This document shows, piece by piece, positions 3,260 to 22,703 of a stretch of DNA of 23,538 nt. Position numbers and translations under genes: made by a program. Source of the DNA: a virus. The notes under the pieces were generated by a model. That model did no database searches, was not told the origin of the DNA, and worked only from the letters and a program-made list of their open reading frames with translations. Location of the stretch: positions 1 through 23,538 of IMG/VR virus record IMGVR_UViG_3300021964_000550; one strand, 5' to 3'. The stretch's first letter is position 1. Each line of letters starts with the position of its first letter.

Positions 3260-4327
3260 TTAAATAATTCCAGCTAATTTTTGCATTCTTAGGACAGCAG
3301 AAGATACTTCATTAATTACTTCTGGTTTAGAAGCTGTAGTACCTGTAGCTTTACTAGCCATTCCTAATTTAGCTTCAGTAACGTTCTCTTTTTTAGTTGT
3401 AATAACGTTCTCTGAAACAGTTTCGAATACTAATTTTACCTCTTTAACAGTCTCAGCTTTATCAAATGCAGCAATTACGTTTACTTTTTGCGACTCTGAT
3501 AATGTATGAGATTTAAAGATTTTGTTTACATAAAGTAGTTTAGAGTTTAAAAGATTAACTTCCTGTAATTCTTTCTGTAAAGTGTCTATTGTATTTAAAG
3601 CTTCAGTTAATTCAGAATTTTCTTCTTTAACTTCTTCTTCGTTTACAACTTCTTCTTCAACAGACTCTTCCATTTCGTTTTCTTTTTTACCTTCTTCTAC
3701 TTCTTCTTCTGAAATTGATTCTAACTCAGCCAATAACTCGTCTAAGTCTATTTCTTCGTCGTCAGCAGCAGGCTCTTCGATAGCTTCAGGCTCATCACCC
3801 ATACCTTCGATATCACCAGCGTCTAAATCAGCTCCAATTTCTTCTTCACCATGTCCCATTTCTTGAGATATGATGTCGCGAATAAGATCTTTGAATTGAT
3901 CAACTGATAAGTCTCCTAATTCTTCGTCTCCTTCGACTTCGTCTTCGATTTCAACCTTGTCTTCAGATTCTTCTGAATCATCCTCAGCTGGTTCTGCATC
4001 CATTTCTTCTTCTTCCTCTGCAATTTCCCCCTCTATAGCTTCTTCCATTTCGTCTTCTTTAGAGTGATCTCCTTCTTCCATAGCATCGTCGTCAGATTTT
4101 TTACCTTCTTCAGTCGTTTCTATAGATTCTTCTACCTCTTCTTCAACTTCGTTTACTGTTTCTTCTTCAACTTTGGAATCATCCATTTCTTGAAGTTTTG
4201 CAGCTAATAAGTCTTTTAAATGAGGAGTTAAAGATTCTTCTAAAGCTTCCTTGGCGTTAGCAATAGCGGCTTCTCTTACAGATTTAGCTTCAGCAATAGC
4301 TTGCTTGAATAAATCTTTGTTTGCCAT
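3260..4327 (-). CDS. 22: Prohead core scaffolding protein gp22
   Basis: A 355-residue, extremely acidic, mostly helical protein (T4 gp22 is 269). The N-terminal 55 residues form an alanine-rich helix (IAEAKSVREAAIANAKEALE). Residues about 50-235 are dominated by Glu/Asp, low complexity. A coiled-coil then runs through LNTIDTLQKELQEVNLLNSK, and the C-terminus ends in a conserved-looking VLRMQKLAGII. In T4, gp22 forms the internal core on which gp23 assembles and is degraded by gp21 before DNA packaging; many (L/I)xE sites are present, including IAE at 11-13. Position between gp21 and gp23 matches T4 exactly. The gene has its own promoter and an unusual 94-base leader with two hairpins. Identification rests on gene order, composition and coiled-coil character. 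Confidence 0.93.
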   Translation of the reverse strand: MANKDLFKQAIAEAKSVREAAIANAKEALEESLTPHLKDLLAAKLQEMDDSKVEEETVNEVEEEVEESIETTEEGKKSDDDAMEEGDHSKEDEMEEAIEGEIAEEEEEMDAEPAEDDSEESEDKVEIEDEVEGDEELGDLSVDQFKDLIRDIISQEMGHGEEEIGADLDAGDIEGMGDEPEAIEEPAADDEEIDLDELLAELESISEEEVEEGKKENEMEESVEEEVVNEEEVKEENSELTEALNTIDTLQKELQEVNLLNSKLLYVNKIFKSHTLSESQKVNVIAAFDKAETVKEVKLVFETVSENVITTKKENVTEAKLGMASKATGTTASKPEVINEVSSAVLRMQKLAGII

Positions 4328-4349
4328 TTTAAAAAAATTTGTGTTTTCG

Positions 4350-4368
4350 TACGGTTATTTTAACCGTA
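4350..4368 (-). other. Leader hairpin upstream of gp22 (proximal)
   Basis: A perfect 8-bp inverted repeat, TACGGTTA and TAACCGTA separated by three A on the coding strand. It ends 22 bases before the gp22 ATG. No T-run follows it on the coding strand, so it is not an intrinsic terminator. It could stabilise the capsid message or modulate initiation. Confidence 0.65.
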
Positions 4369-4392
4369 ATGTGAAGTTTAAATGTGTTTTTG

Positions 4393-4413
4393 ATACAGTA
4401 TAAGTGACTGTAT
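4393..4413 (-). other. Leader hairpin upstream of gp22 (distal)
   Basis: A perfect 7-bp inverted repeat, ATACAGT and ACTGTAT, around a 7-base loop. It starts 8 bases after the promoter octamer, so it would sit at or very near the 5' end of the gp22-gp23 message. A 5'-terminal hairpin commonly protects mRNA from decay; this role is inferred. Confidence 0.6.
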
Positions 4414-4421
4414 ATTCTTTA

Positions 4422-4429
4422 TATAAATA
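4422..4429 (-). promoter_or_regulatory. Putative late promoter of the scaffold-capsid unit
   Basis: Coding-strand octamer TATTTATA, within TATATTTATATAAAG, in the 122-base gap between gp21 and gp22. It lies 92 bases upstream of the first base of the gp22 ATG region, much farther than in the other units (13-23 bases), leaving room for the hairpin leader. Confidence 0.6.
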
Positions 4430-4449
4430 TATACTATTTACAAAAACAA

Positions 4450-5028
4450 TTAAGCTCTTAAAATATCGTTAATTATAGAGTCTAATTTACTAAATTTAGA
4501 TACCTTAACTTTACCCTCTTGAAGTGATATAGGGTTCATAAAAGCACCATGGGTAGAAGGATTAGATACAAAGTCCCAGCATACTAGTTCAAAGTCTGGT
4601 TGTACCTCTAAAGTTCCTTCTGATGTTTGTTGAACTGATCCTGTTCCTCTTGATGAGATTCCTATAGTATGACCAGCCTTTATTATTTCTTTTACAATAT
4701 TACCGGCAGGAGTATTTAATAATTCTACCTTACCCATTAGGTCGTTTCCTTTCCAGTATAACTCTTTTACTATGTGTGAAGCGTTCTTTAGAGAGACAAC
4801 AGGAGATTCAGGATGATCCAATTCTCCGAAGGCGTTTCCTTTATTAACAAACTCATCTACATATTTTTTCGCTTCTCTTTCTAATATAGCTTTAGAATAA
4901 GTTCTACCGTTTTGGTTTTTTGCAATTGCTCTTTGCATTACACCCTCTACTTCGAAAGTTCCAGGCTTTTCCTTAGACTCTCTAATAGTTGGTTTAAACG
5001 GTGTAACGTCTACTAATAGTTGTGCCAT
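4450..5028 (-). CDS. 21: Prohead core protease gp21
   Basis: A 192-residue homologue of the T4 prohead serine peptidase (T4 gp21 is 212 residues). In T4 it cleaves scaffold, core and capsid proteins after (L/I)xE before DNA packaging. The expected catalytic landmarks are visible: GELDHPES with His72, a second conserved-type His85 in NASHIV, and the serine motif GISSRGTG with Ser125/Ser126. The early VEGVMQRAIAKNQNGRTYSK segment is typical of this fold. The start is one base after the stop of the 471-residue core protein gene, whose A-rich lysine codons directly precede it. It ends the transcription unit that begins at 7501. An IRE site at residues 15-17 could serve for self-processing. Confidence 0.94.
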   Translation of the reverse strand: MAQLLVDVTPFKPTIRESKEKPGTFEVEGVMQRAIAKNQNGRTYSKAILEREAKKYVDEFVNKGNAFGELDHPESPVVSLKNASHIVKELYWKGNDLMGKVELLNTPAGNIVKEIIKAGHTIGISSRGTGSVQQTSEGTLEVQPDFELVCWDFVSNPSTHGAFMNPISLQEGKVKVSKFSKLDSIINDILRA

Positions 5029-5029
5029 A

Positions 5030-6445
5030 TTATTTCTTTTCGTTTACTGGTGAAAACATTGTTTGTTTCGGTTCTTCTTCCATATTTTGAGCTGCGTCAA
5101 TTTCAGCTTTGGAGATAGTTCTTACTTTAGGAGTTTCTAATCCTTTAGTAAATCCTGTTTTGCTCACAGGTCTTAGATCCTTATTGAATGCTGCTTCAAT
5201 AGAAGGCGCTAGGAATGCTCCTACTTTTAATCCTTCTTCATTTCTTATATCACCAATAGAATCAAAAACTTTTTGAATCTTATTTCTAGACTTATCATAA
5301 AAAGATTCTATATCACTTATAATATTTTGTAACTGAATAACGGATTGTTTAAATCCTTCAAAGTCACCATAAGTATCTGCAAGTCCGGCTAGATGATTAG
5401 TAGCAGCTTCGTTAACTACTTGTTCTTCTAAAACTTTAGTAATAATGCTTTTTAAGCTTTCTTTAACTACCTCATCTTTACCCATAGCTTTTTTAATAGC
5501 TTTATCTTTAGCAGCCATATAATCGTCCGAATCTACATCTCCATCTCCGTCATGATCTTTACCTTTCTTTTCAGATACAGGCTCTTCTTCATTAAGTCTA
5601 TCATAGTTTATATCTATGAATTGTTCGAACTCTTCTAATGGATCATTACCGTCCATGAGATCACCCATATGAGTATTTAAAAAGTCTTTAATCATATCAT
5701 TAGAAACTTCATGATACTTTCCTTTAATAGTTTGAATAGCTAATGCTATGATTTGTTTCTTATCTAACTCCTCTTGTACTTCATCTATTTCTTCTTCATC
5801 TATTACTTCTTTCATTTTAGCTAATTTTAAAGCATCTTTTTCAGCTTTTTCTCTCTCCATGTCTCTAATCTTATCTGATGCCGCTTTTAGCTTATCTACT
5901 GGTATACCTAGTCTTGCAGCTAAATCATCTAATTTACCTTCGCTAAATAGTTCTTTAACTTCATTTAGTTCTGCTTTTTTCATTCCATTAAATACATCTA
6001 CACTATTTTTTCCGTCAGCAGGAACCATCTTATCGTGTTTATCTACACTACTAGATTCACCTGCCATAAGATTAAGGTAGTGATTTTGGTCTTTTTCAAG
6101 ATTTTTTATCGCTTTTTCTTTAGCCTTTCCATAATCTTCTTTAGTTATAGATTCTTGAGACATTAATCCCATAGCTTCTAATTCAGCATCAATACCTCTT
6201 TCTATTGCTTCTATAGAGAATTTATCATCTGATTTGATTCCTTCTATTTCGTACTTACCGTACATTTTAGGCATCTCTTCTTTTTCAGATATAAATCCTT
6301 TATTCTTTAGAATTTTTACAGTATCGTTGAATCCGTTAAGTGGAGTTATGAGAGCTGGATGTGCTATCCTAGCATCTCTTACAAATTGCTTTTTTGAAAA
6401 GCTTTCGCTTAGTACTCCTCGATATTTTTCAGTCAATGTTTTCAT
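5030..6445 (-). CDS. Prohead core / virion protein with EF-hand-like loop
   Basis: A 471-residue, mainly helical, charged protein. It takes the position of the T4 core genes 67/68 between gp20 and gp21, though no direct similarity to those is visible. Its N-terminus (MKTLTEKYRGVLSESFSKKQ) contains LTE at 4-6 and LSE at 12-14, both gp21-type cleavage sites. A coiled-coil-like region spans about 155-235. Residues 297-308 form a near-canonical EF-hand loop (Asp at 1, 3, 5, 9 and 12, Gly at 6, Val at 8). A separate C-terminal domain (about 348-440) includes HLAGLADTYGDFEGF and NEEGLKVGAFLAP. It overlaps the preceding 73-residue gene by 17 bases. A role as an internal core protein processed by gp21 is my inference; no enzymatic motif is evident. 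Confidence 0.75.
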   Translation of the reverse strand: MKTLTEKYRGVLSESFSKKQFVRDARIAHPALITPLNGFNDTVKILKNKGFISEKEEMPKMYGKYEIEGIKSDDKFSIEAIERGIDAELEAMGLMSQESITKEDYGKAKEKAIKNLEKDQNHYLNLMAGESSSVDKHDKMVPADGKNSVDVFNGMKKAELNEVKELFSEGKLDDLAARLGIPVDKLKAASDKIRDMEREKAEKDALKLAKMKEVIDEEEIDEVQEELDKKQIIALAIQTIKGKYHEVSNDMIKDFLNTHMGDLMDGNDPLEEFEQFIDINYDRLNEEEPVSEKKGKDHDGDGDVDSDDYMAAKDKAIKKAMGKDEVVKESLKSIITKVLEEQVVNEAATNHLAGLADTYGDFEGFKQSVIQLQNIISDIESFYDKSRNKIQKVFDSIGDIRNEEGLKVGAFLAPSIEAAFNKDLRPVSKTGFTKGLETPKVRTISKAEIDAAQNMEEEPKQTMFSPVNEKK

Positions 6446-6650
6446 CTAGATAGTCGAACATTTTAGTGTTATAAGGTCTTTTTTTATTCTTAGTAACTTT
6501 ATATCCTAATTTCTCAGCATACTTAGTTGCTCTATTTTTCTTTTTACCCTTCGAAAAAGCGAAAGGAGTTTGGTAACCGCCAACAGCACCGGTAGTGCTA
6601 ATTTCATCTAAAACTTCTTTAACCATTTTAATTATTTGACTTTTTTTCAT
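6429..6650 (-). CDS. Small basic core-type protein
   Basis: A 73-residue lysine-rich protein. Its N-terminal helix (MKKSQIIKMVKEVLDEIS) ends in LDE at 14-16, the (L/I)xE form cleaved by gp21-type proteases. It is followed by a Gly-rich TTGAVGGYQTPFAF stretch and a basic segment KKKNRATKYAEKLGYKV. Its size and place after gp20 are reminiscent of T4 gp67 (80 residues, a prohead core protein), but T4 gp67 is acidic and I see no sequence match. It overlaps the gene before it by 4 bases (ATGA) and the gene after it by 17, so it is translationally coupled to both. A DNA- or scaffold-binding internal peptide is possible. Confidence 0.7.
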   Translation of the reverse strand: MKKSQIIKMVKEVLDEISTTGAVGGYQTPFAFSKGKKKNRATKYAEKLGYKVTKNKKRPYNTKMFDYLDENID

Positions 6651-7501
6651 AAACTTTTCAATTCATTGATAAGCTCATAAAATTGCATCAAATTTACTAA
6701 ATGATTGTCAGAAATCTTTTCTTTCTTAGATAAGGGTTTAATTGTCTTAAATACCTCTTCTAATTTTATTTTTATTACTTCGTCTTTTACATTATCTTTT
6801 AAAGACTTAACTGCTGCGGCTACTTTAGTTAACTCTTCATTAACTATATTTCTTAATCTTGTAGTTGAACTAACTGCAGTAATAAACTCTCTTAAAATAG
6901 CTTTCTGCTCTGGAAGTAAAGTTTTGTAATTGTTATTAAATTTTTCTAATAAAATTTTAAACGTCAATAGTTTAAGATCTTTATCGTATTTAGAATACTC
7001 TTCTATAAGAGTGTCTTTAGCTGCTTCTTCGTTTTGAGGTGATGAAGTAAGATGTTCTAAAATAGTTACTTTATTAGAAACTAATATATCTGGGTTAATT
7101 ACGTCTAAAGCATTTTGAGCTTCCAATAAACAGTATAGTGCTGCTAATGGTTTATAATCTCTTACTTTAATAGCAAAAAACTCTTCTATATTATAATTAT
7201 CTTTTATCTCTTTTATGAGATTATATTTTAATTTTTTTAAAGCTACCGTGTCTATCTTTCTTGATACCTCAATTATAGTAGATACTATATTTTCAGCTTT
7301 CATTTGTGATACACCTCTATTTTTTAGAATGAATTCATATAGTTTGAATTCTCTAGTTAAAGAGGTTTTACCTGTGAAGTACTTTTTTAACAAAGAAACT
7401 GCTGATGAATCTTTTTTAGATAGCGTATCAGCTGCTATTTGCTTTACTAGCAATTCAAAAATAAGACCGGTATTTTTATACTTTGAATGTTTTATTCTCA
7501 T
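6647..7501 (-). CDS. Conserved-type helical protein downstream of portal
   Basis: A 284-residue, lysine-rich, almost wholly helical protein beginning MRIKHSKYKNTGLIFELLVK. Further segments are KKDSSAVSLLKKYF, YNLIKEIKDNYNIEEFFAIK and, near the end, LVNLMQFYELINEL. No transmembrane segment, metal site or catalytic motif is visible. It is the first gene of a unit that runs on to gp21 and has its own promoter octamer 18 bases upstream, and it occupies the place of the T4 core genes between 20 and 21. I read it as a head-assembly or internal core protein on context alone; the true function is unknown. Confidence 0.72.
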   Translation of the reverse strand: MRIKHSKYKNTGLIFELLVKQIAADTLSKKDSSAVSLLKKYFTGKTSLTREFKLYEFILKNRGVSQMKAENIVSTIIEVSRKIDTVALKKLKYNLIKEIKDNYNIEEFFAIKVRDYKPLAALYCLLEAQNALDVINPDILVSNKVTILEHLTSSPQNEEAAKDTLIEEYSKYDKDLKLLTFKILLEKFNNNYKTLLPEQKAILREFITAVSSTTRLRNIVNEELTKVAAAVKSLKDNVKDEVIKIKLEEVFKTIKPLSKKEKISDNHLVNLMQFYELINELKSL

Positions 7502-7519
7502 TAGTATACGGTTACTATA

Positions 7520-7527
7520 TATAAATA
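7520..7527 (-). promoter_or_regulatory. Putative late promoter of the core-protease unit
   Basis: Coding-strand octamer TATTTATA within ATATTTATATATAG, 18 bases before the ATG at 7501, in the 30-base gap after the portal gene. Confidence 0.58.
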
Positions 7528-7531
7528 TGTG

Positions 7532-9427: not shown

Positions 9428-9444
9428 TACGGTATAGTTTTATA

Positions 9445-9452
9445 TATAAATA
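9445..9452 (-). promoter_or_regulatory. Putative late promoter of the portal gene
   Basis: Coding-strand octamer TATTTATA within CTATTTATATATAAAAC, 17 bases before the ATG at 9427. It occupies the 28-base gap between gp17 and gp20 and reaches almost to the gp17 stop. Confidence 0.6.
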
Positions 9453-9455
9453 GAT

Positions 9456-11030: not shown

Positions 11031-11035
11031 AACTT

Positions 11036-12178
11036 TTATTCTGTTTCATCTTCTTCAAGATAATTATTTGGAGCAGTTTCAAAAACACCTATTCTAGGAC
11101 CAAATAATTTCGGGCTAAACTTTTGGAAGTTTACTCCTTTACTTTTTAACTCTTTAGCCATTTTTTCTGCTGTGCCTTTTGTGTAAATGAATTTTCCATT
11201 ATTACCAGGAAGCTTACCTCCTCCAAAATCATGAACCATGAAATGCTTAAAACCTTCCTCACTTTGGTACTTTATAAAATGCTCTAGACCTACAGCTATT
11301 ACTAATGAATTTGCTGAGTTAAAATCCGAACTACTTAAAGAACTTAGTCCGACTCTATTTAAAACTGCATTAAATGCTGATACTGCTTTATCTTTATGAT
11401 CTTTATAAAGTTCTGCGACTAGAAAGCTAATATCCTGTAAGTCGTAACTAACTCCTTTGTAAACAGGTTTATTTTCTCCTTCAACACCTAATTCTCTAAA
11501 AGCATCAATAAACTCTTTATTACTACTTAAAGCACGTGAGTTAGATCCTAGTTTAGCTCCTTGACCTTTTACTTCGAATTCTTCATTATCAATTGCTAAA
11601 TCTCCTTTACCAGAAGCGTTGGTTACATTGTCAAATAAAAGTATCAATGCTAGTTCTCCCATTCCTACTCCTCTTTTCTTTTCGTCTTGAGCTGTATGCC
11701 TGAAAATTGCTTTAACTACATTAGTAGGAAGATTAGTTTGTGCAGAAATATCGTCGATTATATTACCGCCTCTATCTGAAGTATTAAATTTAGCTCCTCC
11801 TTTTTGTAGGTATTCAGAAAATTTTTTAGAGTCTTCTATAGGTAGATCTTCTATAATACTTTGAATTTGTTGAGAATACTGTTTATATATTTTGTCACCG
11901 TATCCTTTATCCTTTACTTTATTTCTAATTGATCTATAGTTACTAAAATTAGTTACTCTTTGATAAAGTTTTTTAATTTGTATATCATCAAGTGGAGCAT
12001 CAGATATAAAATCAATTATATCTTTTTTAGTAATTTCTTTCGGCTCTTGGTCTTCCTCTTTAACAAGCTCAGAAATAAGTCTATCTAGTATAGCTTTATC
12101 TTCCGGATTATTCATATCCGGTACACCTGTTTTAGTTCTCCAGGCCCATTCTGTGTATAGTTTGTCTGTTATATTCAT
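11036..12178 (-). CDS. PD-(D/E)XK nuclease-like protein
   Basis: A 380-residue protein whose middle carries the spaced residues of a PD-(D/E)XK nuclease. Glu175 is in GMGELALILLFDN, Asp193 in GKGDLAI, and Glu202 and Lys204 in FEVKGQGAKLG. The strand-turn-strand look and the Gly-rich continuation resemble restriction-type nucleases. The N-terminal 160 residues are helical and charged and could be a targeting or oligomerisation domain. It lies directly upstream of gp17 (5-base gap) and abuts the EF-hand gene, so it is co-expressed with packaging genes. Possible roles are DNA trimming during packaging or host-DNA degradation. T4 gp17 has its own, unrelated nuclease domain, so this would be an additional activity. 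Catalysis is inferred from motif spacing only. Confidence 0.68.
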   Translation of the reverse strand: MNITDKLYTEWAWRTKTGVPDMNNPEDKAILDRLISELVKEEDQEPKEITKKDIIDFISDAPLDDIQIKKLYQRVTNFSNYRSIRNKVKDKGYGDKIYKQYSQQIQSIIEDLPIEDSKKFSEYLQKGGAKFNTSDRGGNIIDDISAQTNLPTNVVKAIFRHTAQDEKKRGVGMGELALILLFDNVTNASGKGDLAIDNEEFEVKGQGAKLGSNSRALSSNKEFIDAFRELGVEGENKPVYKGVSYDLQDISFLVAELYKDHKDKAVSAFNAVLNRVGLSSLSSSDFNSANSLVIAVGLEHFIKYQSEEGFKHFMVHDFGGGKLPGNNGKFIYTKGTAEKMAKELKSKGVNFQKFSPKLFGPRIGVFETAPNNYLEEDETE

Positions 12179-12739
12179 TTAGTATCTTCCTTCTAGATCT
12201 TCTTCGTCCATTTCATTACCTTTCAAATCGATAGCATATCCGTATCCTTCTTTAGCATCGTCTCCGTCTCCATAGTCGCTATAAACTCCTCCTGAAATAA
12301 AATATCCGTTAGGATACTTTTCGATAGATTCTATTCTACCGTCATCATTAGGATCAAAATCTCCTATTTCGTATGTTTTACCTCCTACTGTAAGTTTCTT
12401 TAACTTTTTAGGTTTGAATGAAGGTTTATCGTCTTTAGATTTGTTTTTAACATATTCTGCAAACTGTCTATCTTGTATAGCACTAAGTTCTGGGTGAGAT
12501 TGAATACCGTTTTTTCCTACCTCTACAGACTGTATATTATTTTCATATCCTGGAGTATCACTATACCTAATAGATGCTTCCAGTCCTAATTCTTTAGCTT
12601 TTGCAACTAACTCCTCAGCATTTTTTAATTGTTCTTCTGGGGTATGTCCAACTACGGTCATACCTTCATTTACAGATCTACTGTTGGCAGTAAGTTTATT
12701 CTCTACTAAGAATTTTTTAAGGTCAAAATTATTTTTCAT
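12179..12739 (-). CDS. EF-hand-loop protein, likely virion-associated
   Basis: A 186-residue protein. The N-terminal segment MKNNFDLKKFLVENKL ends in LVE at 11-13, a gp21-type cleavage form. Residues 129-140 (DPNDDGRIESIE) make a complete 12-position EF-hand loop: Asp1, Asn3, Asp5, Gly6, Ile8, Glu9 and Glu12. It is followed by an aromatic Gly/Asp-rich C-terminus (PNGYFISGGVYSDYGDGDD). One loop without an obvious second partner suggests a structural calcium site rather than a classical paired EF-hand. The gene abuts the nuclease-like gene with no gap and follows the acidic-tailed gene by 14 bases. Function is unknown; incorporation into the virion is inferred. Confidence 0.7.
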   Translation of the reverse strand: MKNNFDLKKFLVENKLTANSRSVNEGMTVVGHTPEEQLKNAEELVAKAKELGLEASIRYSDTPGYENNIQSVEVGKNGIQSHPELSAIQDRQFAEYVKNKSKDDKPSFKPKKLKKLTVGGKTYEIGDFDPNDDGRIESIEKYPNGYFISGGVYSDYGDGDDAKEGYGYAIDLKGNEMDEEDLEGRY

Positions 12740-12753
12740 GTCTGTTATTATTA

Positions 12754-13806
12754 TTATGCTTCTGGTTCTTCACCTGCTTCAAAATCAACTGGTTCACCTG
12801 ATAGATCGGCTCCTCCTTCTTCTCCTCCTGCGTCATCCGGTTCTGGAATATCAGCAGTTCCTCCTCCTTCACCACCGGGGAAGTCTCCCCCACCGGTACT
12901 AGCATCATCTACATCCTCCCCAGAGGCTGCATCATCGCCTGCTCCTTTCATTGGACCTTCTTTGTACAGTATAGAAAGTTTATCTAAAGCTTGTTGATAG
13001 TCGTTTATTTTATTAAGATAGTACCTTTTACCCATTATCTGAGCTTCAAATGTTTCACCTGTCCATTTTAAAATATAATCTTGTCCGTTTTTAAGATTAA
13101 TTCTGAACGAAGAAGGACGAGGTGATATCCAGTCAATTGAGTCAACAAATTGTTTAAAGTCTTCAGTTTGTAGTTTTATTAATGCCTGTCTTAAAGAAGG
13201 AAACTTACCTAACATAATATCAGTAGCATCTTCTAATACTGTCTCTTCTGGAGCATCTGTGTTTGGTTCTTCCTCAGGTACTGGTTCTTCTTCTATTTCG
13301 TCTAATAAAGATTCATTTAATGTAGGTAGAGCTTTAATCTTGTCTACTGTTTCTGACATAATTCGTCTCATCTTCATTAATTCATATTGATCAGGTCTTT
13401 CGATTCTTAAATATCTTTGAAGTTTTCTAAAGTTAGTTTTAATAAGTTCAAATAGTTCTCTTGCATTTTTATCAGTTCTAATATCCTTATTATTCATCAA
13501 CTTTTTAATATCTAAAATAATATCATTAAAACTAGTATAGATACCTTCAAATGATGGTAACTTAATAACTTTATGTCCTATTGACCCTCCTTCATTATCT
13601 CCTTTTTCTTTCACATAACGATATAAGGTTGTCATATCTTTATCTACAAAGTCTCTACTAGGGTCCGGTGATACACCGTATCTTGATTCAATACTTTTTT
13701 GTACCTTAGGGTCTAAATCTTTAAAAGAGATAGTGTTTTCTCTTTCTTCCTCTTGTATAAGAAGTTTACCGTAAGTTTCTAATATAAGTTTTTCTAACCT
13801 ATGCAT
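12754..13806 (-). CDS. Acidic-tailed protein, candidate internal head protein
   Basis: A 350-residue protein beginning MHRLEKLILETYGKLL, with ILE at 8-10, a gp21-type site in an amphipathic helix. A helical part covers about 40-165 (TSFNDIILDIKKLMNNKD, FRKLQRYLRIERPDQYELM). A Glu/Pro-rich linker at about 170-190 is followed by a compact domain (about 192-285) with WISPRPSSFRINLKNGQDY and TGETFEAQIMGKRYYLNKI. Residues from about 288 are a very acidic Gly/Asp/Glu-rich tail. It starts one base after the stop of the 1005-residue gene, whose lysine codons provide the A-rich upstream sequence. No enzymatic motif is seen. The structured region could be a nucleic-acid or protein-binding domain with an acidic tail acting as a DNA mimic. 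Confidence 0.7.
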   Translation of the reverse strand: MHRLEKLILETYGKLLIQEEERENTISFKDLDPKVQKSIESRYGVSPDPSRDFVDKDMTTLYRYVKEKGDNEGGSIGHKVIKLPSFEGIYTSFNDIILDIKKLMNNKDIRTDKNARELFELIKTNFRKLQRYLRIERPDQYELMKMRRIMSETVDKIKALPTLNESLLDEIEEEPVPEEEPNTDAPEETVLEDATDIMLGKFPSLRQALIKLQTEDFKQFVDSIDWISPRPSSFRINLKNGQDYILKWTGETFEAQIMGKRYYLNKINDYQQALDKLSILYKEGPMKGAGDDAASGEDVDDASTGGGDFPGGEGGGTADIPEPDDAGGEEGGADLSGEPVDFEAGEEPEA

Positions 13807-13807
13807 A

Positions 13808-16825: not shown

Positions 16826-16848
16826 AATATAGTTGTATTATATACGTA

Positions 16849-16856
16849 TATAAATA
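16849..16856 (-). promoter_or_regulatory. Putative late promoter of the terminase unit
   Basis: Coding-strand octamer TATTTATA in CTATTTATTTATATACGTATATAA, 23 bases before the ATG at 16825. The palindrome TATACGTATA overlaps and follows it. Confidence 0.55.
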
Positions 16857-16862
16857 AATAGA

Positions 16863-17492
16863 TTAACTATCCCAAATAACGTTTTTAAACTTTTCCGGTG
16901 AAATACCAAAAAAATCTGTTCGCCATTTTGTTTGTTCGAAAAAATCAAGATGATACCATTCATCTTTTTTCTTCCATATCTTAATAGCTACATCATCCCA
17001 ATCTAAGTTAAGAACTAATTGCTCAATTTCCAACTTTTTTTCTATCACAGCATCATATTCAAACGAATCCCATTCATAGTGAAATACTTCAAATACTGCA
17101 TCTTCTGATACATAATCAATAGATATGTCAATACCCCATTTAGGTTTCATTTTAACTAATTTAAATAACATAGGGTTACTTTCCTTAGCTATATATAGTA
17201 TTTGTTCTAGAGCTACAGAATCAAATGCTTTTCTTTCAAATAAGTCTGAGTGATTAATATGAGCTCCATTTCTTTTATCCCATACAAGCCAGTCACTCCT
17301 CATACAGTCTTCATGTCTTCTCTCTATAGGTTCGAATCCGTTTTTAGGTAAAAAAACTTGTTCGGCTTTAGTTAAATGATATCCATTTTGGTCAAATAAA
17401 TCTACACATTTAGGGTCTTTTAGAACCTCTACTTCATCTGTAGGATCTAAATAATACGCTTGTCTGTGAAGTTTATTGTCGGTTAATATCAT
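16863..17492 (-). CDS. Uncharacterised soluble protein
   Basis: A 209-residue acidic, tryptophan-rich protein that I do not recognise. It has no signal peptide, membrane segment or paired cysteines. Visible blocks are an N-terminal LHRQAYYLDPTDEVEVLKDP and a central KPKWGIDISIDYVSEDAVFE leading into VFHYEWDSFEYD. The C-terminal block is EWYHLDFFEQTKWRTDFFGI, ending KFKNVIWDS. The start is supported by a 4-base ATGA overlap with the upstream gene, so the two are translationally coupled. It is the last gene of a unit that begins at 19398. The mix of strands and aromatic residues suggests a compact beta-rich domain. Function unknown. Confidence 0.68.
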   Translation of the reverse strand: MILTDNKLHRQAYYLDPTDEVEVLKDPKCVDLFDQNGYHLTKAEQVFLPKNGFEPIERRHEDCMRSDWLVWDKRNGAHINHSDLFERKAFDSVALEQILYIAKESNPMLFKLVKMKPKWGIDISIDYVSEDAVFEVFHYEWDSFEYDAVIEKKLEIEQLVLNLDWDDVAIKIWKKKDEWYHLDFFEQTKWRTDFFGISPEKFKNVIWDS

Positions 17493-18589
17493 TTTTTCTT
17501 TCCGCCTTTCATATTAGCACACCAATGGTACATTTTACCTTTTTCACCGCCGTACTTTTTAGCTTTTGCTCTCAATGATGACACTGAACCTTTACATGAG
17601 GCTCCTGATTTTTTTACTCTACCGGGTCTAGATTTTCCTTTTACTTTACCATCGGCGTAGTTTTCTTTGTAGAGTTTCTCATCTACTACATATATTTTAT
17701 CCGGGGTAAAAGAATTACCTACTAATAACGTTTCTTTTTCAGATTCTTTTGAGTATTCTAAGTCTTTGGAAAGCTCTCCTGTAAAGTCAGGGTGTAAAAT
17801 AAAGTTAGGGTTGTCTAAAGAAACTTTTACATAGCCACCTACTCTACCAGGTGATTTTTTATGATCTATGTATCCAGAATAATGTCCAAATCCTTTAGCT
17901 ACCTGTTCGTCTATTGTAAAACTTAAATACCCTTTATCACTTCTCGATTTAACTTTTAAATTAGAAGGAGTTTCATACTCTGTAACCCCGTTAGAAGTTC
18001 TAATCGGTTTAAGCTTGTCGATGAATTCTTTTTTAAAAGTCATTCCTCTATAACCAAACTTGTTTCCACCTGTTCTTGGATCAAGTTCTTGTGGATACTT
18101 TTTCTTATCTTTAAGTAGTTTTTTCAGTAAGTCTAAATCAATTTCAGTATAATCGTCTATATATTTTCGCAGTTGATCTTTTACTTTACCGTCGGTGTAG
18201 TTTTCTTGTAGGTCAGATATATCTACAATCCAAATTTTTGGATCAACACCGTTTTTAACCTGACCTGAAAGCCTAGTATTACCGGCCACTAGGTCATAAT
18301 CGTTGTCAGAGAACTTTACAGCTATTGACATTTCGATTGTACCTTTTTTAAATGCGTCTTGGAATCTTTGTTTTTTAGGTTCTTCTAAACGATCAAATTT
18401 TAGATCAACATTACCTAATACGTTTTTAATCTTAGAATAAGATGTAACGTATCCTTTTTTAGCTATATCAATCCAACCTTGTTTACCCATTTTCTCAAAT
18501 TCAGGATATCTTATAGCTTCCTCCCATTCTGCAGAGAAGTTTGGATCTCTATAAGTTATACCTTCTACTATGAGTTGGATTAGTTTCAT
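17489..18589 (-). CDS. ParB-like plus ADP-ribosyltransferase-like fusion with Cys/Lys tail
   Basis: A 366-residue protein in three parts. It starts MKLIQLIVEG, with a gp21-type IVE site at 7-9. Residues about 20-125 look like a ParB/Srx-type domain (KMGKQGWIDIAKKGYVTSY, DYDLVAGNTRLSG). Residues about 175-305 show the spaced signature of an R-S-E class ADP-ribosyltransferase: Arg181 in GYRGM, Ser223-Phe-Thr in GYLSFT, and Glu284-x-Glu286 in SEKETLLVG, followed by PDKIYVVDE. A basic tail (315-366) has Cys332 and Cys357. The linker ENY(T/A)DGKVK occurs twice, at 129-137 and 309-317, exactly flanking the ART-like part. T4 makes the ARTs Alt, ModA and ModB, and Alt is packaged and injected; a similar role is plausible here. 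Activity is inferred. Confidence 0.7.
   Translation of the reverse strand: MKLIQLIVEGITYRDPNFSAEWEEAIRYPEFEKMGKQGWIDIAKKGYVTSYSKIKNVLGNVDLKFDRLEEPKKQRFQDAFKKGTIEMSIAVKFSDNDYDLVAGNTRLSGQVKNGVDPKIWIVDISDLQENYTDGKVKDQLRKYIDDYTEIDLDLLKKLLKDKKKYPQELDPRTGGNKFGYRGMTFKKEFIDKLKPIRTSNGVTEYETPSNLKVKSRSDKGYLSFTIDEQVAKGFGHYSGYIDHKKSPGRVGGYVKVSLDNPNFILHPDFTGELSKDLEYSKESEKETLLVGNSFTPDKIYVVDEKLYKENYADGKVKGKSRPGRVKKSGASCKGSVSSLRAKAKKYGGEKGKMYHWCANMKGGKKK
17638..17667. repeat. Direct repeat copy 1 flanking the ART-like segment
   Basis: A 30-base segment matching 18178-18207 with two mismatches (CTTTTACTTTACC, then ATCGGCGTAG, then TTTTCTT). It encodes the C-terminal copy of the ENYADGKVK linker. The two copies are 540 bases (180 codons) apart. 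Confidence 0.85.
18178..18207. repeat. Direct repeat copy 2 flanking the ART-like segment
   Basis: The 30-base partner of 17638-17667, with GTCGGTGTAG in the middle. It encodes the ENYTDGKVK linker that ends the ParB-like part. The in-frame spacing fits a duplication or recombination that placed the ART-like domain between two linkers. Confidence 0.85.
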
Positions 18590-19039
18590 TTATTTCTTTT
18601 TCCAGATTTCACCTCTTCTACATCTAACTACTGCTCCTGAAGCATAAGCTGATGGCCAGGTGTCATATTTTTGTTTTGCTAGTCTAGTACATCTATCGTC
18701 TTCTTGAAGTAAGTTTTCATTTTGTTGCATCTCTGCTATAGTTCCTACTACTAAGTTACGAATATCTTCTTTAGTTACTTTTGCTTTTTTTGTATTTTTC
18801 ACGACTGTTTTTCCTTTAGCTCCTGCTTTCTTTTTCTTTGCAGCAGTAGCGGCTCTTTGGCCTTTTGTTAAACTTTGTGCTTTTGCTTTTGGTAAACATC
18901 TATCTGGGTTCTTCTTATTTTTTGAAGTACCGCATTTACCGGCTATATTTCCAGAAGAAGATATACGTACCCACTTTTCTTTTTTAAACCAGTCTCTTAG
19001 AGACTCTAATGTGATATTTTTTACTTCTTCGTTAGTCAT
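18590..19039 (-). CDS. DUF5872-like small basic protein
   Basis: A 149-residue lysine-rich protein. Residues about 16-88 match what I know as the DUF5872-type pattern: WVRISSSGNIAGKCGTSK, NPDRCLPKAKAQSL and QRAATAAKKKKAGAKGKTVV, with Cys36 and Cys48. A short helix joins this to a second module at 113-149 (DDRCTRLAKQKYDTWPSAYA, then SGAVVRCRRGEIW) with Cys117 and Cys140. The four cysteines could bind metal or form crosslinks. The protein ends in KKK, whose A-rich codons lead straight into the next ATG with no gap. Its start shares one base with the stop of the upstream coiled-coil gene (TAATG). The high positive charge suggests DNA binding inside the head, but there is no direct evidence. Biochemical function unknown. 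Confidence 0.72.
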   Translation of the reverse strand: MTNEEVKNITLESLRDWFKKEKWVRISSSGNIAGKCGTSKNKKNPDRCLPKAKAQSLTKGQRAATAAKKKKAGAKGKTVVKNTKKAKVTKEDIRNLVVGTIAEMQQNENLLQEDDRCTRLAKQKYDTWPSAYASGAVVRCRRGEIWKKK

Positions 19040-19398
19040 TATGCGTTAAGTTCTGAGTGCATCATAAACATTCTTATAATAATAGCTGCTATAATACCGA
19101 ATATAATCCAAAGAGCTCTGGTGACTCCTTCTTTCCAGTTTTTAAGAGCTTCAACTTCAGCTAATTTAGCTTCAAATTCTTTTTGATTTGCTTGCAAAAG
19201 TTGCCTATGTTCAGTATTTTTATTAGTATTTACTATAACTCCATTGTCTGGGTTGAGAAGAGTATATTTCATTTCTGATATATCTTCTTTCAAATCAGTC
19301 ATGTCATTTTGCATTTGTTTCAGTTCTCCGTTAGGCATATGAGTCTTAATATGCTTTATTTCGTTTAAAACTGATTCAAGTAATTCCTTCTGTGTCAT
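19039..19398 (-). CDS. Coiled-coil protein with C-terminal membrane anchor
   Basis: A 119-residue protein. Residues 1-90 form a charged coiled-coil (GELKQMQNDMTDLKEDISEM, FEAKLAEVEALKNW) interrupted by LLNPDNGVIVNTNKNTEHR. Residues about 94-112 are one hydrophobic helix (ALWIIFGIIAAIIIRMFMM), followed by a short polar end. This layout of a cytoplasmic coiled-coil with a single C-terminal anchor is like XhlA-type lysis-associated proteins and some holins, so a lysis or membrane role is possible, but no lysin or spanin is nearby. LLE at 6-8 and LNE at 11-13 are also gp21-type sites. It opens its unit, with a promoter octamer 16 bases upstream. Confidence 0.72.
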   Translation of the reverse strand: MTQKELLESVLNEIKHIKTHMPNGELKQMQNDMTDLKEDISEMKYTLLNPDNGVIVNTNKNTEHRQLLQANQKEFEAKLAEVEALKNWKEGVTRALWIIFGIIAAIIIRMFMMHSELNA

Positions 19399-19414
19399 GG
19401 TAAGATGTATATTA

Positions 19415-19422
19415 TATAAATA
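19415..19422 (-). promoter_or_regulatory. Putative late promoter of the coiled-coil/ART unit
   Basis: Coding-strand octamer TATTTATA within ATATTTATATAATA, 16 bases before the ATG at 19398. It sits in a 27-base gap whose other end is the stop of the zinc-ribbon gene. Confidence 0.58.
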
Positions 19423-19425
19423 TAT

Positions 19426-20001
19426 CTAATCTATCTTTGACCTAATGTATTTAAGATACTCTTTAATTTCTGTAGACAGTTTAGATTTAACGGCTTGATC
19501 GTTGTTATTCCAGGTTTCTATATCCCCTTGTTCCGTCACATACGTATTAGTATATTCTAAAGATTCAGATGCCCATTCCTCGAGTTCATTAGCAAATTTA
19601 GTTAGGTTTCCTTTTTTAATTTCCTTTACATAACTATCGTATAATCCATTTCTTTTTAACTCAGCTTCAAATGCTACAAAACAATCTAAGCACATTTTAT
19701 TTATCTTATAGACTTGTATACTGAGGTGATTATTAATGGGTTTGCTACATTTAGGACAGGCATAAGGAACTTTTACTAACTTCTTAGCAGAATCTAATTT
19801 AGTAATATTCTGTTTAATACCGTTTTTGATAGTCCACTTCTTTCCAGACTCTTCCCATATATCGCCTTCTTCATAGCTAGAATGACTACGTCTATAACCA
19901 GTTTGAGATTTGGTTTTTGAAGTGTAGTCTTTTTTAACTAAATTACGTATACGATTTACATCTGAATGTTTGAACTCCTTTTTAAGAGTGTTATCACTCA
20001 T
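19426..20001 (-). CDS. Zinc-ribbon protein, unknown function
   Basis: A 191-residue protein with two CxxC knuckles, CPKC at 82-85 and CLDC at 104-107, about 18 residues apart, forming a probable zinc ribbon. The N-terminal 30 residues are basic and helical (KKEFKHSDVNRIRNLVKKDY). They are followed by EGDIWEESGKKWTIKNGIKQ, which reads as a short beta unit, and the C-terminal 80 residues are helical. The start overlaps the HAD gene by 8 bases and the gene closes its transcription unit. The mix suggests a DNA- or RNA-binding or structural protein. I know similar zinc-ribbon proteins as hypotheticals in marine T4-like phages; no specific function is supported. Confidence 0.72.
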   Translation of the reverse strand: MSDNTLKKEFKHSDVNRIRNLVKKDYTSKTKSQTGYRRSHSSYEEGDIWEESGKKWTIKNGIKQNITKLDSAKKLVKVPYACPKCSKPINNHLSIQVYKINKMCLDCFVAFEAELKRNGLYDSYVKEIKKGNLTKFANELEEWASESLEYTNTYVTEQGDIETWNNNDQAVKSKLSTEIKEYLKYIRSKID

Positions 20002-20560
20002 AACCTAATTCTTTTAATTTTTCTAAAACAGGAGTTATATCCCCTTTTTTTACTCTTAGAGCTATTCCACCTTTGGATGCCCATTCATTTATATTAGATT
20101 TTTTATCATCTATTAATATACTATTCTCATTAGCATATCGCTGTTTATCTGAAGAATAAGCAAATATGACTTTCGGTTTAGGGTTTAATTTATTTCTAAC
20201 CCATAAATTTTTACCTAACCTAGAAGTATTATTTCTAGATGGAGAGGTAAGTACTTTAGGATTATATTTACTAATAAAATTCCATAACTCTTCTCCTCTA
20301 GGCATCCAATCCATTCCAACCCAAAAAGCTACTCCGACTATACCGTCAATAAAGTTCCAAAATTCTTCTGGTCCAAATATATCTTCAAAGTCTTTTGGTT
20401 TATTTACTTTTTTAATATCCTTTAAAGGGTAGTACTTAGGTCCTACCTCTTGTAGTTTCTCATGAAACTTTCTTTCGAAATCTGTTAATACTCCATCCAT
20501 ATCACAATATATCTGATATTTAGGAGGTTCATTTAATAATTCTTTTAAACTTTTTTTCAT
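19994..20560 (-). CDS. HAD-superfamily phosphatase, deoxyribonucleotidase-like
   Basis: A 188-residue protein with the HAD motifs. Motif I is CDMDGVLTDF with the nucleophile Asp20 and acid/base Asp22. The motif II region is VLTSPS with Thr105/Ser106. Motif III is a lysine in the VRNKLNPKPK area, and motif IV is ILIDDKKSN with Asp151/Asp152. Small HADs with DxDGVLxDF are often 5'(3')-deoxyribonucleotidases that recycle nucleotides, which fits a phage, but substrate cannot be read from sequence. The N-terminus MKKSLKELLNEP has LNE at 9-11, the (L/I)xE form, though a proline follows. It lies 5 bases after the nucleotidyltransferase gene and overlaps the zinc-ribbon gene by 8. Confidence 0.85.
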   Translation of the reverse strand: MKKSLKELLNEPPKYQIYCDMDGVLTDFERKFHEKLQEVGPKYYPLKDIKKVNKPKDFEDIFGPEEFWNFIDGIVGVAFWVGMDWMPRGEELWNFISKYNPKVLTSPSRNNTSRLGKNLWVRNKLNPKPKVIFAYSSDKQRYANENSILIDDKKSNINEWASKGGIALRVKKGDITPVLEKLKELGYE

Positions 20561-20565
20561 AACCT

Positions 20566-21765
20566 TTAATTTTTAATTTTGTCTTCCCAATTTCGGAAAG
20601 TAATATTACCTACTAAGTAAGCTTCTTTTTCTAACTCTAATAACTTATCATCTTCGTTAGTATCTGTTGTTTGTATATTTCCTAATCTACCTTCTAGGTT
20701 TTGTATATGATGAACCATTTCATGAGCAAAAGATCTCATAACATCTTTAGGGTGTCGTCCTTCTACATACAGTACTACTTCTTTATTATTAGGATCGTAG
20801 TGGGCTGTTTTGCCAAAAAACGATTCTGATTCTGCAATATCTCTTCTTATTTTTATTTCAGGTAAAGGTTGAATATTCATACCTTCATCTAACATATATT
20901 CTAATATAGAGCCCATGAAAGGAGTATAATCAAATCCTACCTTATCGTCTTGGTGCTTTAAAGATACTTTAATATGGTCATTTTTATATTCTACATTAAC
21001 ACCGTCTGTACCTATTTGGTTCTCGATACGTTTAAATAAAGTTAGCAAGTAGTTTTTATCTGCTGAAGGAAGTATTGGCTCAGTAGAGAGTTTATTTCTA
21101 CCATTATCTTCAGATGTATCTTCTACAAAATATTCACTAACAAAAGTAGATATATTTGTACTTATTATTTCAGCTACTATTTTATCTTTCAAATCGTTTA
21201 ATATATTTAATATTTCTTCTCTAGATAACTGTTTAGGAAAAAAGTCTATGATCTTATCTAAATTACCTGATAAAATACTCTTTCTGAAATCTGTTGCTCT
21301 TACTCCTGAACCAGGAGCAGACTGTAATGCTAATCCTTCTACATTTTCTACATTATTAAATGTAGTAACTCTTTTTAAATCTACGAAATCTTCTTCACCT
21401 CTTAAACCAGTTACTGCTACAAATTGATCTTCAGGATACTCTCTTGCATAATCTTTAGCAGCAAACATTGGATTCTTTTGACCATCTACTATTTCTACGT
21501 TACCTAAATGTTTAATATAAATATTCCATATAGCAGTAGCTTCAATTTTATCTATACCATTTCTTTCTCCTCCTCCTATAAAGATAATAACTTTATCTAT
21601 TTTAGGTTTACTATTAGAACCTCCATTGAATAAGCTAGAAGCTTTCTCTTTATAATCATCTTTATTATATAAAGTACCATTATAAGAACCGTCGAGTAAA
21701 GATTTTACTACGTTAAAATGACCTCTATGAGGTGGTTTAAAAGCTCCTGGATATAATGCTATCAT
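20566..21765 (-). CDS. Nucleotidyltransferase fused to a zincin-like metallopeptidase domain
   Basis: A 399-residue two-domain protein. Residues 1 to about 175 are a nucleotidyltransferase of the cytidylyltransferase-like family: YPGAFKPPHRGHF with HxGH at 13-16, a glycine-rich IFIGGGERNG, and PGSGVRATDFRKSI, corresponding to the family's (S)GxxxR signature. Such enzymes activate NMN, phosphopantetheine or sugar/lipid phosphates with a nucleotide. A helical linker leads to residues about 300-399, which hold FAHEMVHHIQ, an HExxH zinc site with His348, Glu349 and His352, and a downstream glutamate cluster (LELEKEAYLVGN, Glu377/379/381) suitable as third ligand. The start is fixed by an ATGA overlap with the kinase gene. 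The N-terminal activity may serve NAD metabolism, which an ART would draw on; this is speculative. Confidence 0.82.
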   Translation of the reverse strand: MIALYPGAFKPPHRGHFNVVKSLLDGSYNGTLYNKDDYKEKASSLFNGGSNSKPKIDKVIIFIGGGERNGIDKIEATAIWNIYIKHLGNVEIVDGQKNPMFAAKDYAREYPEDQFVAVTGLRGEEDFVDLKRVTTFNNVENVEGLALQSAPGSGVRATDFRKSILSGNLDKIIDFFPKQLSREEILNILNDLKDKIVAEIISTNISTFVSEYFVEDTSEDNGRNKLSTEPILPSADKNYLLTLFKRIENQIGTDGVNVEYKNDHIKVSLKHQDDKVGFDYTPFMGSILEYMLDEGMNIQPLPEIKIRRDIAESESFFGKTAHYDPNNKEVVLYVEGRHPKDVMRSFAHEMVHHIQNLEGRLGNIQTTDTNEDDKLLELEKEAYLVGNITFRNWEDKIKN

Positions 21766-22703
21766 GCTAAGAATGATTGAACTTTACTGTCTATTTCTGC
21801 AGGAGAAGAATGTTGTAACTTCTCTTGGAATAAAGGACTAAATAACATCTCTGCTATACTCTCTAAAACGTCTTCATGATCTTTATCTCTTTTAGCTTTA
21901 GAGTCTCTATACTTATTAATAGCGTCCCTTAACTTATCATCTCCTGGGCCAGCACCAATCTTTTTATAGGTCTTTAAGAATGCAGTTTTTACAGCTTTGT
22001 CTTCAGATCTATTACCTCTATCGTAATCTATATCTTGTACCGCTTTATTAAACTCATCTTCTTCTTGTTTTGACATTACTACCGGCTTAAAAAAACTACT
22101 TCCTTCTATTCCATTTGCTTCATTATATTTTGAAAGATAGTCTTTTATTCCTGTAGGACCGTTTTTAGCAGCTGTATCAAAAGCTTTTATTTCTTTATCA
22201 TATTGACCGCCTCTTAAATTTACAAAAACAGAAAGATTGCCTCCTAATTTTTTATTAAATTCTCCTATTTTTTGATATGCATTTCGCCAAGTAGAGAATA
22301 CTGCGGGAGCAGGAATATTTCTATCTGCTCTAGCAAAGTTAGAAATATAAGATATCATAGGATGAGTATATACCATAACCATATAAACTTTATAACCCTT
22401 GTTTAAAAGATTATTTAAGTTTTTGTCAAATCCTGTTCCCGATGCAGTAGTATCCCAAACGAAACTAGTTCCTTCTGATGCTGCTGCTGTTACGTCCTTG
22501 TTGACTTGTCGACTGGCTGCTCCTAGATTGTTGTGATACGGATGGTCCGGATCCTCTACGTACTTGTCCGGGTTGAACTGTTCTAGGCTGTCTAATGATA
22601 GTTGGTTGAGTAGGTACGTTTTCCCTGCTCCAGCTCCTCCCGCCATTATTACCGCTTTCGGGCCTGCCGTAGCCTCTAATATTAGGTCTGATAGTTTTAT
22701 CAT
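21762..22703 (-). CDS. P-loop kinase, zeta-toxin-like
   Basis: A 313-residue protein with Walker A GGAGAGKT at 22-29, preceded by a hydrophobic strand AVIMA. FNPDKYVED follows at about 43-51 and the strand SFVWDTTASGTGF at about 80-92, typical of zeta-toxin/polynucleotide-kinase-like P-loop kinases. Another strand with a conserved-looking segment is KVYMVMVYTHP near 105-115. Substrate is unknown; nucleotide, nucleic-acid-end and sugar-nucleotide kinases share this layout. The N-terminus MIKLSDLILEA has ILE at 8-10, a capsid-targeting-like site. Its first 79 codons lie inside the lipoprotein gene in another frame. The P-loop itself is in this overlap, so a later start would destroy the enzyme and the overlap cannot be explained away. 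It overlaps the next gene by 4 bases. Confidence 0.82.
   Translation of the reverse strand: MIKLSDLILEATAGPKAVIMAGGAGAGKTYLLNQLSLDSLEQFNPDKYVEDPDHPYHNNLGAASRQVNKDVTAAASEGTSFVWDTTASGTGFDKNLNNLLNKGYKVYMVMVYTHPMISYISNFARADRNIPAPAVFSTWRNAYQKIGEFNKKLGGNLSVFVNLRGGQYDKEIKAFDTAAKNGPTGIKDYLSKYNEANGIEGSSFFKPVVMSKQEEDEFNKAVQDIDYDRGNRSEDKAVKTAFLKTYKKIGAGPGDDKLRDAINKYRDSKAKRDKDHEDVLESIAEMLFSPLFQEKLQHSSPAEIDSKVQSFLA
22465..22703 (-). other. Dual-coding (overprinted) region
   Basis: These 239 bases are read in one frame as residues 208-286 of the lipoprotein and in the +1-shifted frame as residues 1-79 of the kinase. GC rises to about 51% over 22501-22680 (my count, 92 of 180), against 23% and 32% in two neighbouring 60-base blocks I counted. 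No promoter octamer lies upstream of the kinase, so both come from one message. Confidence 0.75.

Follow-up and report, generated by a model that had tools for sequence, protein, structure and literature searches.

Candidate T4-type capsid-targeting leaders on unrelated proteins of an Immutovirus-like marine phage

Introduction

The phage proteins that enter the cell together with the DNA are known for just a few model phages. In T4, the internal proteins IPI, IPII and IPIII and the protein Alt carry a capsid-targeting sequence (CTS; Mullaney & Black 1996, as reviewed in PMC9026906 and PMC3012670). In the ten-residue leader of IPIII, targeting depends mainly on residues 4 and 7 and processing on residues 8 and 10, and Asp at position 10 permits targeting while blocking processing (PMC9026906). 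Here we analyse similar N-terminal peptides in the 23,538 nucleotides of IMG/VR virus record IMGVR_UViG_3300021964_000550 (the window hereafter), a 23.5-kb contig from a T4-like phage akin to the Flavobacterium phage genus Immutovirus, with a major capsid protein 70.7% identical to that of vB_FspM_immuto (immuto hereafter).

The leaders of the window resemble those of the T4 internal proteins in being N-terminal prodomains of about ten residues, with hydrophobic residues at positions 4 and 7, Ile or Leu at 8 and Glu at 10; the T4 leader MKTYQEFIAE has the same arrangement (Y4, F7, I8 and E10). In both cases one tag is found on unrelated proteins, the phage encodes a gp21 protease (S77), and core proteins are substrates, here predicted, of that protease. 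The leaders differ from MKTYQEFIAE in reading MK(L/I)SxLILE, NFDLKKFLxE or MKKSQLxxIIKE, with several subtypes per genome, and the cargo is larger in number and different in kind. It is encoded in the gp17-gp23 operon, whereas in T4 it is scattered, and a basic C-terminal tail is common to many of the cargo proteins.

More distant systems offer partial parallels. The Dar proteins of phage P1, including DarB, also have an N-terminal signal that sends them into the capsid for delivery, but their N-termini share no consensus and P1 appears to work without a distinct T4-like scaffolding system (PMC9024508). In phiKZ and SPN3US, the prohead protease removes propeptides ending in E from ejection proteins, and the diverged gp53 and gp54 have identical N-termini; these propeptides, however, mostly exceed 100 residues and end in the motif A/S-x-E (PMC5694885). 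Closer in sequence are virion enzymes of the cyanophages S-CREM2, S-SCSM1 and S-SM1, which bear a T4-type leader and were found in the virion by mass spectrometry. Their host and cargo differ from those considered here, and the parts of the published reports that we drew on mention no leader. While T4-type capsid targeting is thus a known kind of system, we found no description, in the literature searched, of this set of cargo, of its several leader subtypes or of the leader-cargo-tail modularity.

Results

A heptad at the N-terminus of unrelated proteins

We consider it likely that the N-terminal peptides of the window are T4-type capsid-targeting prodomains on a modular, enlarged internal-protein system, with docking, gp21 cleavage, retention and injection predicted as in T4. 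The initial annotation had proposed such tags on unrelated proteins, and this idea is strongly supported by family statistics, conservation at the positions that matter in T4, reuse of leaders, the presence of a gp21 protease gene in the operon and the virion proteomes of cyanophages.

The informative signal is a heptad, Φ-x-x-Φ-[LIVM]-x-E, rather than (L/I)xE alone. It is seen as L4-SD-L7-I8-L-E10 in a kinase, L4-EK-L7-I8-L-E10 in a 350-aa protein, LKKFLVE in a 186-aa protein, LKELLNE in a HAD protein and LIQLIVE in a 366-aa protein with an ADP-ribosyltransferase-like (ART-like) region. Scored strictly, as [LIVMFYW]xx[LIVMFYAC][LIVM]xE within the first 22 residues, it is present in 10 of the 22 window proteins (the kinase, HAD and ART-like proteins, gp22, and the 119-, 350-, 186-, 73-, 471- and 98-aa proteins). 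Composition-preserving shuffles of the N-termini gave 1.15 +/- 1.0 matches (at most 6 over 20,000 runs), and 22-mers taken from the interior of these proteins gave 1.06 +/- 0.97. The bare [LI]xE, which had been taken as the signal, is weaker (13/22 window proteins versus 5.8 +/- 1.9 shuffled), and bare [LIVM]xE also occurs within the first 16 residues of 52/53 homologs of the 284-aa protein, a family without signs of a leader. We therefore rejected the bare form as too loose and retained the full heptad. The N-termini listed initially all exist as written, on the minus strand at the genes named, and their sharing by unrelated proteins is borne out by the strict counts and by near-identical leaders on many bodies.

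We then extended the comparison to further loci, among them 80 that encode gp21, 50 the kinase and 80 the HAD protein, as well as to five contigs measuring 168-191 kb and the full genome of immuto. Proteins were clustered after removal of their first 25 residues, so that the leader could not drive the clustering. Among 150 body-clustered families of at least five members, there are 27 in which a majority of members show the pattern at residues 1-22, compared with 3, 4, 4, 5, 3 and 0 in the next six 22-aa windows. With one member per family, there are 27.5 matches versus 6.4 +/- 2.4 in shuffled controls, a comparison that the initial annotation had proposed for N-termini across related phages. 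Families are nearly all-or-none, with 108/150 rounding to a fraction of 0.0 and 16 to 1.0. As the window and immuto were already known when the pattern was drawn up, the fair test lies in families and genomes outside both: 19 of the 27 leader families lack any window protein (control windows give 2-5), and 15 contain neither a window nor an immuto protein.

Counted by direct BLAST homologs, the strict pattern is present in 73/76 kinases, 21/21 relatives of the 350-aa protein, 57/57 of gp22 and 25/25 of the 73-aa protein. It is absent from homologs of gp17 (0/50), gp20 (0/50), the nucleotidyltransferase (0/78) and the 191-aa (0/75) and 209-aa (0/32) proteins, the very proteins from which it had been said to be missing. 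Its genomic distribution is also uneven: in immuto and the five large contigs pooled, 71/197 genes match in the kinase-to-head block, whose limits were chosen by eye around the head operon, versus 46/1,143 elsewhere. Enrichment holds in each of the six genomes (Fisher P 5e-5 to 2e-9), and the same block genes give 4/197 and 6/197 in the next two windows. As a control, the T4 IPII and IPIII leader MKTYQEFIAE matches the strict pattern.

Conserved positions and exchangeable leaders

By their sequence, the leaders are short N-terminal prodomains of 9-14 aa ending in [LIV]xE. Entropies in the kinase family, where 73/76 members match and selection bias is accordingly small, are 0.23 bits at P7, 1.01 at P4, 0.39 at P3 and 0.00 at P1, and about 2.2 at P6 and P5. 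Compared with the T4 mutational data, the positions equivalent to the targeting residues (4 and 7) and to the processing residues (8 and 10) show conservation, and those equivalent to 5 and 6 are free. The four residues past the E vary (2.4-2.9 bits), after which the domain opens with a conserved P-K. The kinase N-terminus thus reads as a conserved tag, a free linker and a domain, in that order.

Leaders and bodies are combined freely. The leader NFDLKKFLxENK is found on 30 proteins in 16 body clusters and leaders of the MKLSxIILE type on 327 proteins in 44 body clusters, these cluster counts being upper bounds because multidomain relatives may split. Conversely, the HAD body carries differing leaders (MKKSLKELLNE, MxxSIVDLLE and MKKVMGNLADLLLE). 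The 366-aa protein is itself a mosaic of leader, ParB-like region, ART-like region and basic C-terminal tail (ENYADGKVKGKSRPGRVKKSGASCKGSVSSLRAKAKKYGGEKGKMYHWCANMKGGKKK; 17489-17665). Leader and tail are kept in its relatives L104, L139, L141, L144, L146 and L147, of which L146 and L147 have dropped the ART-like part and L104 and L141 have a zinc ribbon in place of the ParB-like part; in the 73-aa proteins L157 and L159 there is hardly anything between leader and tail. Among the loci retrieved, no fewer than 94 distinct proteins have this tail, and 46 of these also carry a CTS-like leader.

Leaders on cyanophage virion enzymes

A virion proteome comprising 52 proteins has been published for the T4-like cyanophage S-CREM2 (PMC10665884), and we recovered the 219 open reading frames (ORFs) of this phage for comparison of N-termini. 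Three non-structural enzymes of the virion begin with a T4-type leader: a SAM hydrolase (MKDFDSFLEE), an APH/ChoK-like kinase (MKRFDAFLTE) and a cytidylyltransferase (MKNFSSFLTE). The virion protein ORF13 begins MKDLHSFLTE, and a Cas9-like nuclease has RFASFMAE at residues 18-25. A T4-derived pattern is present in 5/28 non-structural or unassigned virion proteins versus 4/167 undetected ones (P 0.004), with P 0.004-0.007 across patterns for this subset. The authors of the proteome could not exclude carry-over contamination (PMC10665884); the presence of the tag on these enzymes favours true packaging.

NMNAT, reported in the virions of S-SCSM1 and S-SM1 (PMC9602691, PMC3037559), begins MKSFLQFLKE and MKKFSAFLNE in these phages, whereas its homolog in jumbo phage 121Q starts at the domain, without a leader. 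The nucleotidyltransferase of the window differs from cyanophage NMNAT in lacking a leader throughout the lineage. In cyanophages, the leader is a good indicator for enzymes and no general rule for virion proteins.

Discussion

If the leaders act as in T4, the two hydrophobic positions (T4 residues 4 and 7) would dock each protein into the gp22-type core during head assembly, and the gp21 of the phage would cut after [L/I/V]-x-E (T4 residues 8 and 10) during maturation. The mature cargo would stay in the head with the DNA and then, as Alt and the internal proteins do in T4, enter the host. In the Immutovirus-like marine lineage, the tag would be a portable module on about ten proteins per genome, comprising a zeta/PezT-like kinase, a nucleotidase-like HAD protein, a ParB-like/ART-like multidomain protein, several proteins of unknown function and core proteins. 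Packaging through recruitment by the tag is the step most strongly indicated; docking and retention in this phage are presumed, and cleavage and injection are expected from the T4 precedent.

Several points weigh against this interpretation or narrow it. Single-linkage clusters may split multidomain homologs, and related sequences are not independent. The strict pattern also matches about 4% of genes outside the block, and it is an incomplete detector: of the proven internal proteins of T4, Alt (MELITELFDE) and IPI escape it. The HAD leader often departs from the strict heptad (DLLE) and ends in D in 3/77 homologs. In the cyanophages, enrichment over the whole S-CREM2 virion is modest (P 0.08 for the strict and 0.04 for the T4-derived pattern), and the T4-style pattern is not enriched among S-SCSM1 virion proteins (1/48 versus 3/255, P 0.5), where only NMNAT fits. 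The literature searched contained no virion proteome for immuto or the Immutovirus-like lineage.

The most serious competitor, though an unlikely one, is a scaffold-binding tag that is neither cut nor delivered, in which the E is part of a helix and the proteins act in assembly or exit with the scaffold. Some leader families (73-aa, 471-aa and gp22) are indeed core proteins by position, and D at P1 in 3/77 HAD homologs fits targeting without cutting as seen for T4 D10 (PMC9026906). However, few positions of the kinase leader are as constant as P1 E and P3, and the linker after them is variable. An assembly role is not obvious for kinase and nucleotidase domains, and cyanophage enzymes with the same tag remain in mature virions.

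Chance and common descent both seem very improbable. Lys-, Leu-, Ile- and Glu-rich N-terminal helices in an AT-rich phage could produce heptads by coincidence, the bare [LI]xE is common (52/53 in the 284-aa family), and the 119-aa coiled-coil protein looks like such a case; yet matches are far fewer in shuffles that keep composition, in other windows and in genes beyond the block, and families are close to all-or-none. As for N-termini that are alike simply by paralogy, without a selected targeting signal, some bodies do share modules (the basic C-terminal tail and an HDCAAHVVHE domain). Against this, the kinase, HAD, 350-aa and ART-like bodies fall in separate clusters when the first 25 residues are ignored, and single bodies (HAD; ParB-like/ART) carry different leaders. 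Leader swapping by recombination, on the other hand, is compatible with capsid targeting by T4-type prodomains.

We lean, by a small margin of confidence, towards a broader proposal: that marine T4-like phages (Immutovirus-like phages and cyanophages) share a cargo-loading code in which a portable CTS, frequently accompanied by a basic tail, is placed on exchanged effector domains, giving at least ten injected enzymes per phage that can be read from sequence. If true, this code would predict the virion cargo of uncultured phages and a lineage-specific arsenal in each phage. A sequence rule flagging such proteins would make hundreds of uncharacterised genes of the abundant marine T4-like phages testable candidates for immediate-early host takeover or counter-defence, and the tag offers a reason why NMNAT, kinase and SAM hydrolase recur in cyanophage virion proteomes. 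Leaders of other T4-like phages might also add to the tools with which proteins are loaded into phage heads.

Leader-bearing proteins of the window

The main genes of the window all lie on the minus strand. In the order of transcription they encode the kinase, the nucleotidyltransferase, the HAD protein, 191-, 119- and 149-aa proteins, the 366-aa ART-like protein, 209-, 1005-, 350-, 186- and 380-aa proteins, gp17, gp20, 284-, 73- and 471-aa proteins, gp21, gp22, gp23, a second 380-aa protein and a 98-aa protein.

The kinase (21762-22703, 313 aa; leader MIKLSDLILE, 22674-22703) is Zeta-toxin/PezT-like, with a P-loop (Walker A GGAGAGKT), a Pfam Zeta_toxin match of 5.6e-12 (46 bits against a cut-off of 22.3) and a weak match to PDB PezT 2p5t (E 0.0059). 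In a different frame, an ORF of 286 aa with a lipoprotein-like N-terminus, MKRITFLFVLFLLASCG, (22465-23325) shares about 240 bases with the start of the kinase gene. The initial identification of the kinase is confirmed by the Pfam profile, whereas its ART-like label for the 366-aa protein (17489-18589; leader MKLIQLIVE, 18563-18589) has motifs alone behind it. The ParB-like and ART-like assignments are motif-level readings without profile support; R-S-ExE-like motifs (YRG / LSF / EKE) are invariant among four close relatives, while the protein has no Pfam match and no PDB fold match by Foldseek, and two AlphaFold models are both poor (pLDDT ~45). The ADP-ribosyltransferase identity is therefore unproven. 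A search of cultured phages gave no match for either the kinase or the ART-like protein, and PADLOC gave only weak matches for the cargo proteins, mostly of ATPase type.

The HAD protein (19994-20560, 188 aa; leader MKKSLKELLNE, 20528-20560) resembles 5'(3')-deoxyribonucleotidases (phrog_2643, 2.7e-20), but its Pfam NT5C score of 16.2 bits is below the cut-off of 24.8. Its homologs mostly read MxxSIVDLLE followed by AYPLPE. The leader proposed for it persists as [LIVM]xE within the first 16 residues of 75/77 homologs and as the strict heptad in only 13/77, and on sequence it appears weaker and looser than the others. Those variants whose leader ends in D may, like T4 D10, be packaged without being cut.

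The 350-aa acidic protein (12754-13806; leader MHRLEKLILE, 13777-13806) was recounted by direct BLAST, because its cluster of 97 also contains the 149-aa family. The leader of the 186-aa protein (12179-12739; MKNNFDLKKFLVE, 12701-12739) is the one found nearly identically on 30 proteins, and a similar leader occurs on immuto genes 179, 194 and 195. Two candidates had been overlooked initially. One is a 149-aa basic protein (18590-19039), the N-terminal extension of which ends in NITLE before SLRDW (19004-19039); its homologs (24/39 strict) read VRDIVKE before SLRDW, and its phrog_23735 match begins at residue 13, directly past the extension. The other is the 98-aa protein (98-394, GTG start; leader MKLANIISE, 368-394), with [LIVM]xE in the first 16 residues of 40/41 homologs, which begin MKLTDIILE, MKLTQILSE or MKLIPLILE.

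The 119-aa protein (19039-19398; MTQKELLESVLNE) had been listed as a coiled-coil protein with such a leader and probably does not belong there. Although 60/65 homologs match strictly, it has a C-terminal transmembrane segment (residues 95-113, KD 2.43) and a weak match to phrog_937 hemolysin, and conservation in the family runs on past the E of the supposed site. We doubt that it is packaged and regard it as probably a coiled-coil coincidence, a false positive for the leader.

The head operon and further candidates

The presumed processing enzyme, gp21 (4450-5028), is a clear Peptidase_S77 (Pfam, 1.6e-34; phrog_207, 2e-51) with an N-terminal (FKP)TIRE site, encoded in the same operon as the leaders. 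Upstream of it in transcription, between gp20 and gp21, the 73-aa core protein (6429-6650; MKKSQIIKMVKE followed by VLDE, 6603-6650) and the 471-aa core-region protein (5030-6445; MKTLTE / MKTLTEKYRGVLSE, 6404-6445) occupy the position of T4 genes 67 and 68. The site suggested for the 471-aa protein stands insofar as [LIVM]xE occurs in the first 16 residues of 41/41 homologs, but the family usually has its conserved [LIV]xE at residues 11-14 (as in YRAVLE and YRGVLSE) and not just in MKTLTE. The scaffold (3260-4327; MANKDLFKQAIAE, 4289-4327) is gp22-like by position and acidic composition. The major capsid protein gp23 (1650-3227; phrog_138, 3.5e-76) has a 58-aa prodomain ending in QAKQIVAE (3054-3227), and Q[IV]V[AS]E recurs among its homologs.

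Other genes have leader-like or unusual features. The 380-aa protein at 11036-12178 has a PD-(D/E)XK-nuclease-like stretch (GELALILLF...KGDLAIDNEEFEVKGQG), and its relatives begin MNLIDKVLLEW, with a leader-like site. The nucleotidyltransferase (20566-21765) carries a C-terminal motif, HEMVHHIQ, that is zinc-metallopeptidase-like, together with the site ISTFVSE in its interior, and a relative in the large contig G002 (144835-146508) is fused to a ParB-like domain. In T4 itself, the N-termini of gp61.1 (MKTFKEFIKE) and gp2 (MAIFQIINE) are CTS-like (L338-L341: 18966-19130, 76061-76885), and gp61.1 looks like a further internal protein candidate. Outside the block in G001-G005, two conserved small families have leader-like starts, MKLDQLRKIIREEV... 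and ...KSVISEAAKINFAGH, and could be further cargo. Recurrent candidates beyond the block include MKLDQLRKIIREEV and MKxLxxxIKxVISEAAKINFxGHxF, and examples of such leader-like small genes lie at 2484-2924 and 25742-26104 of G002.

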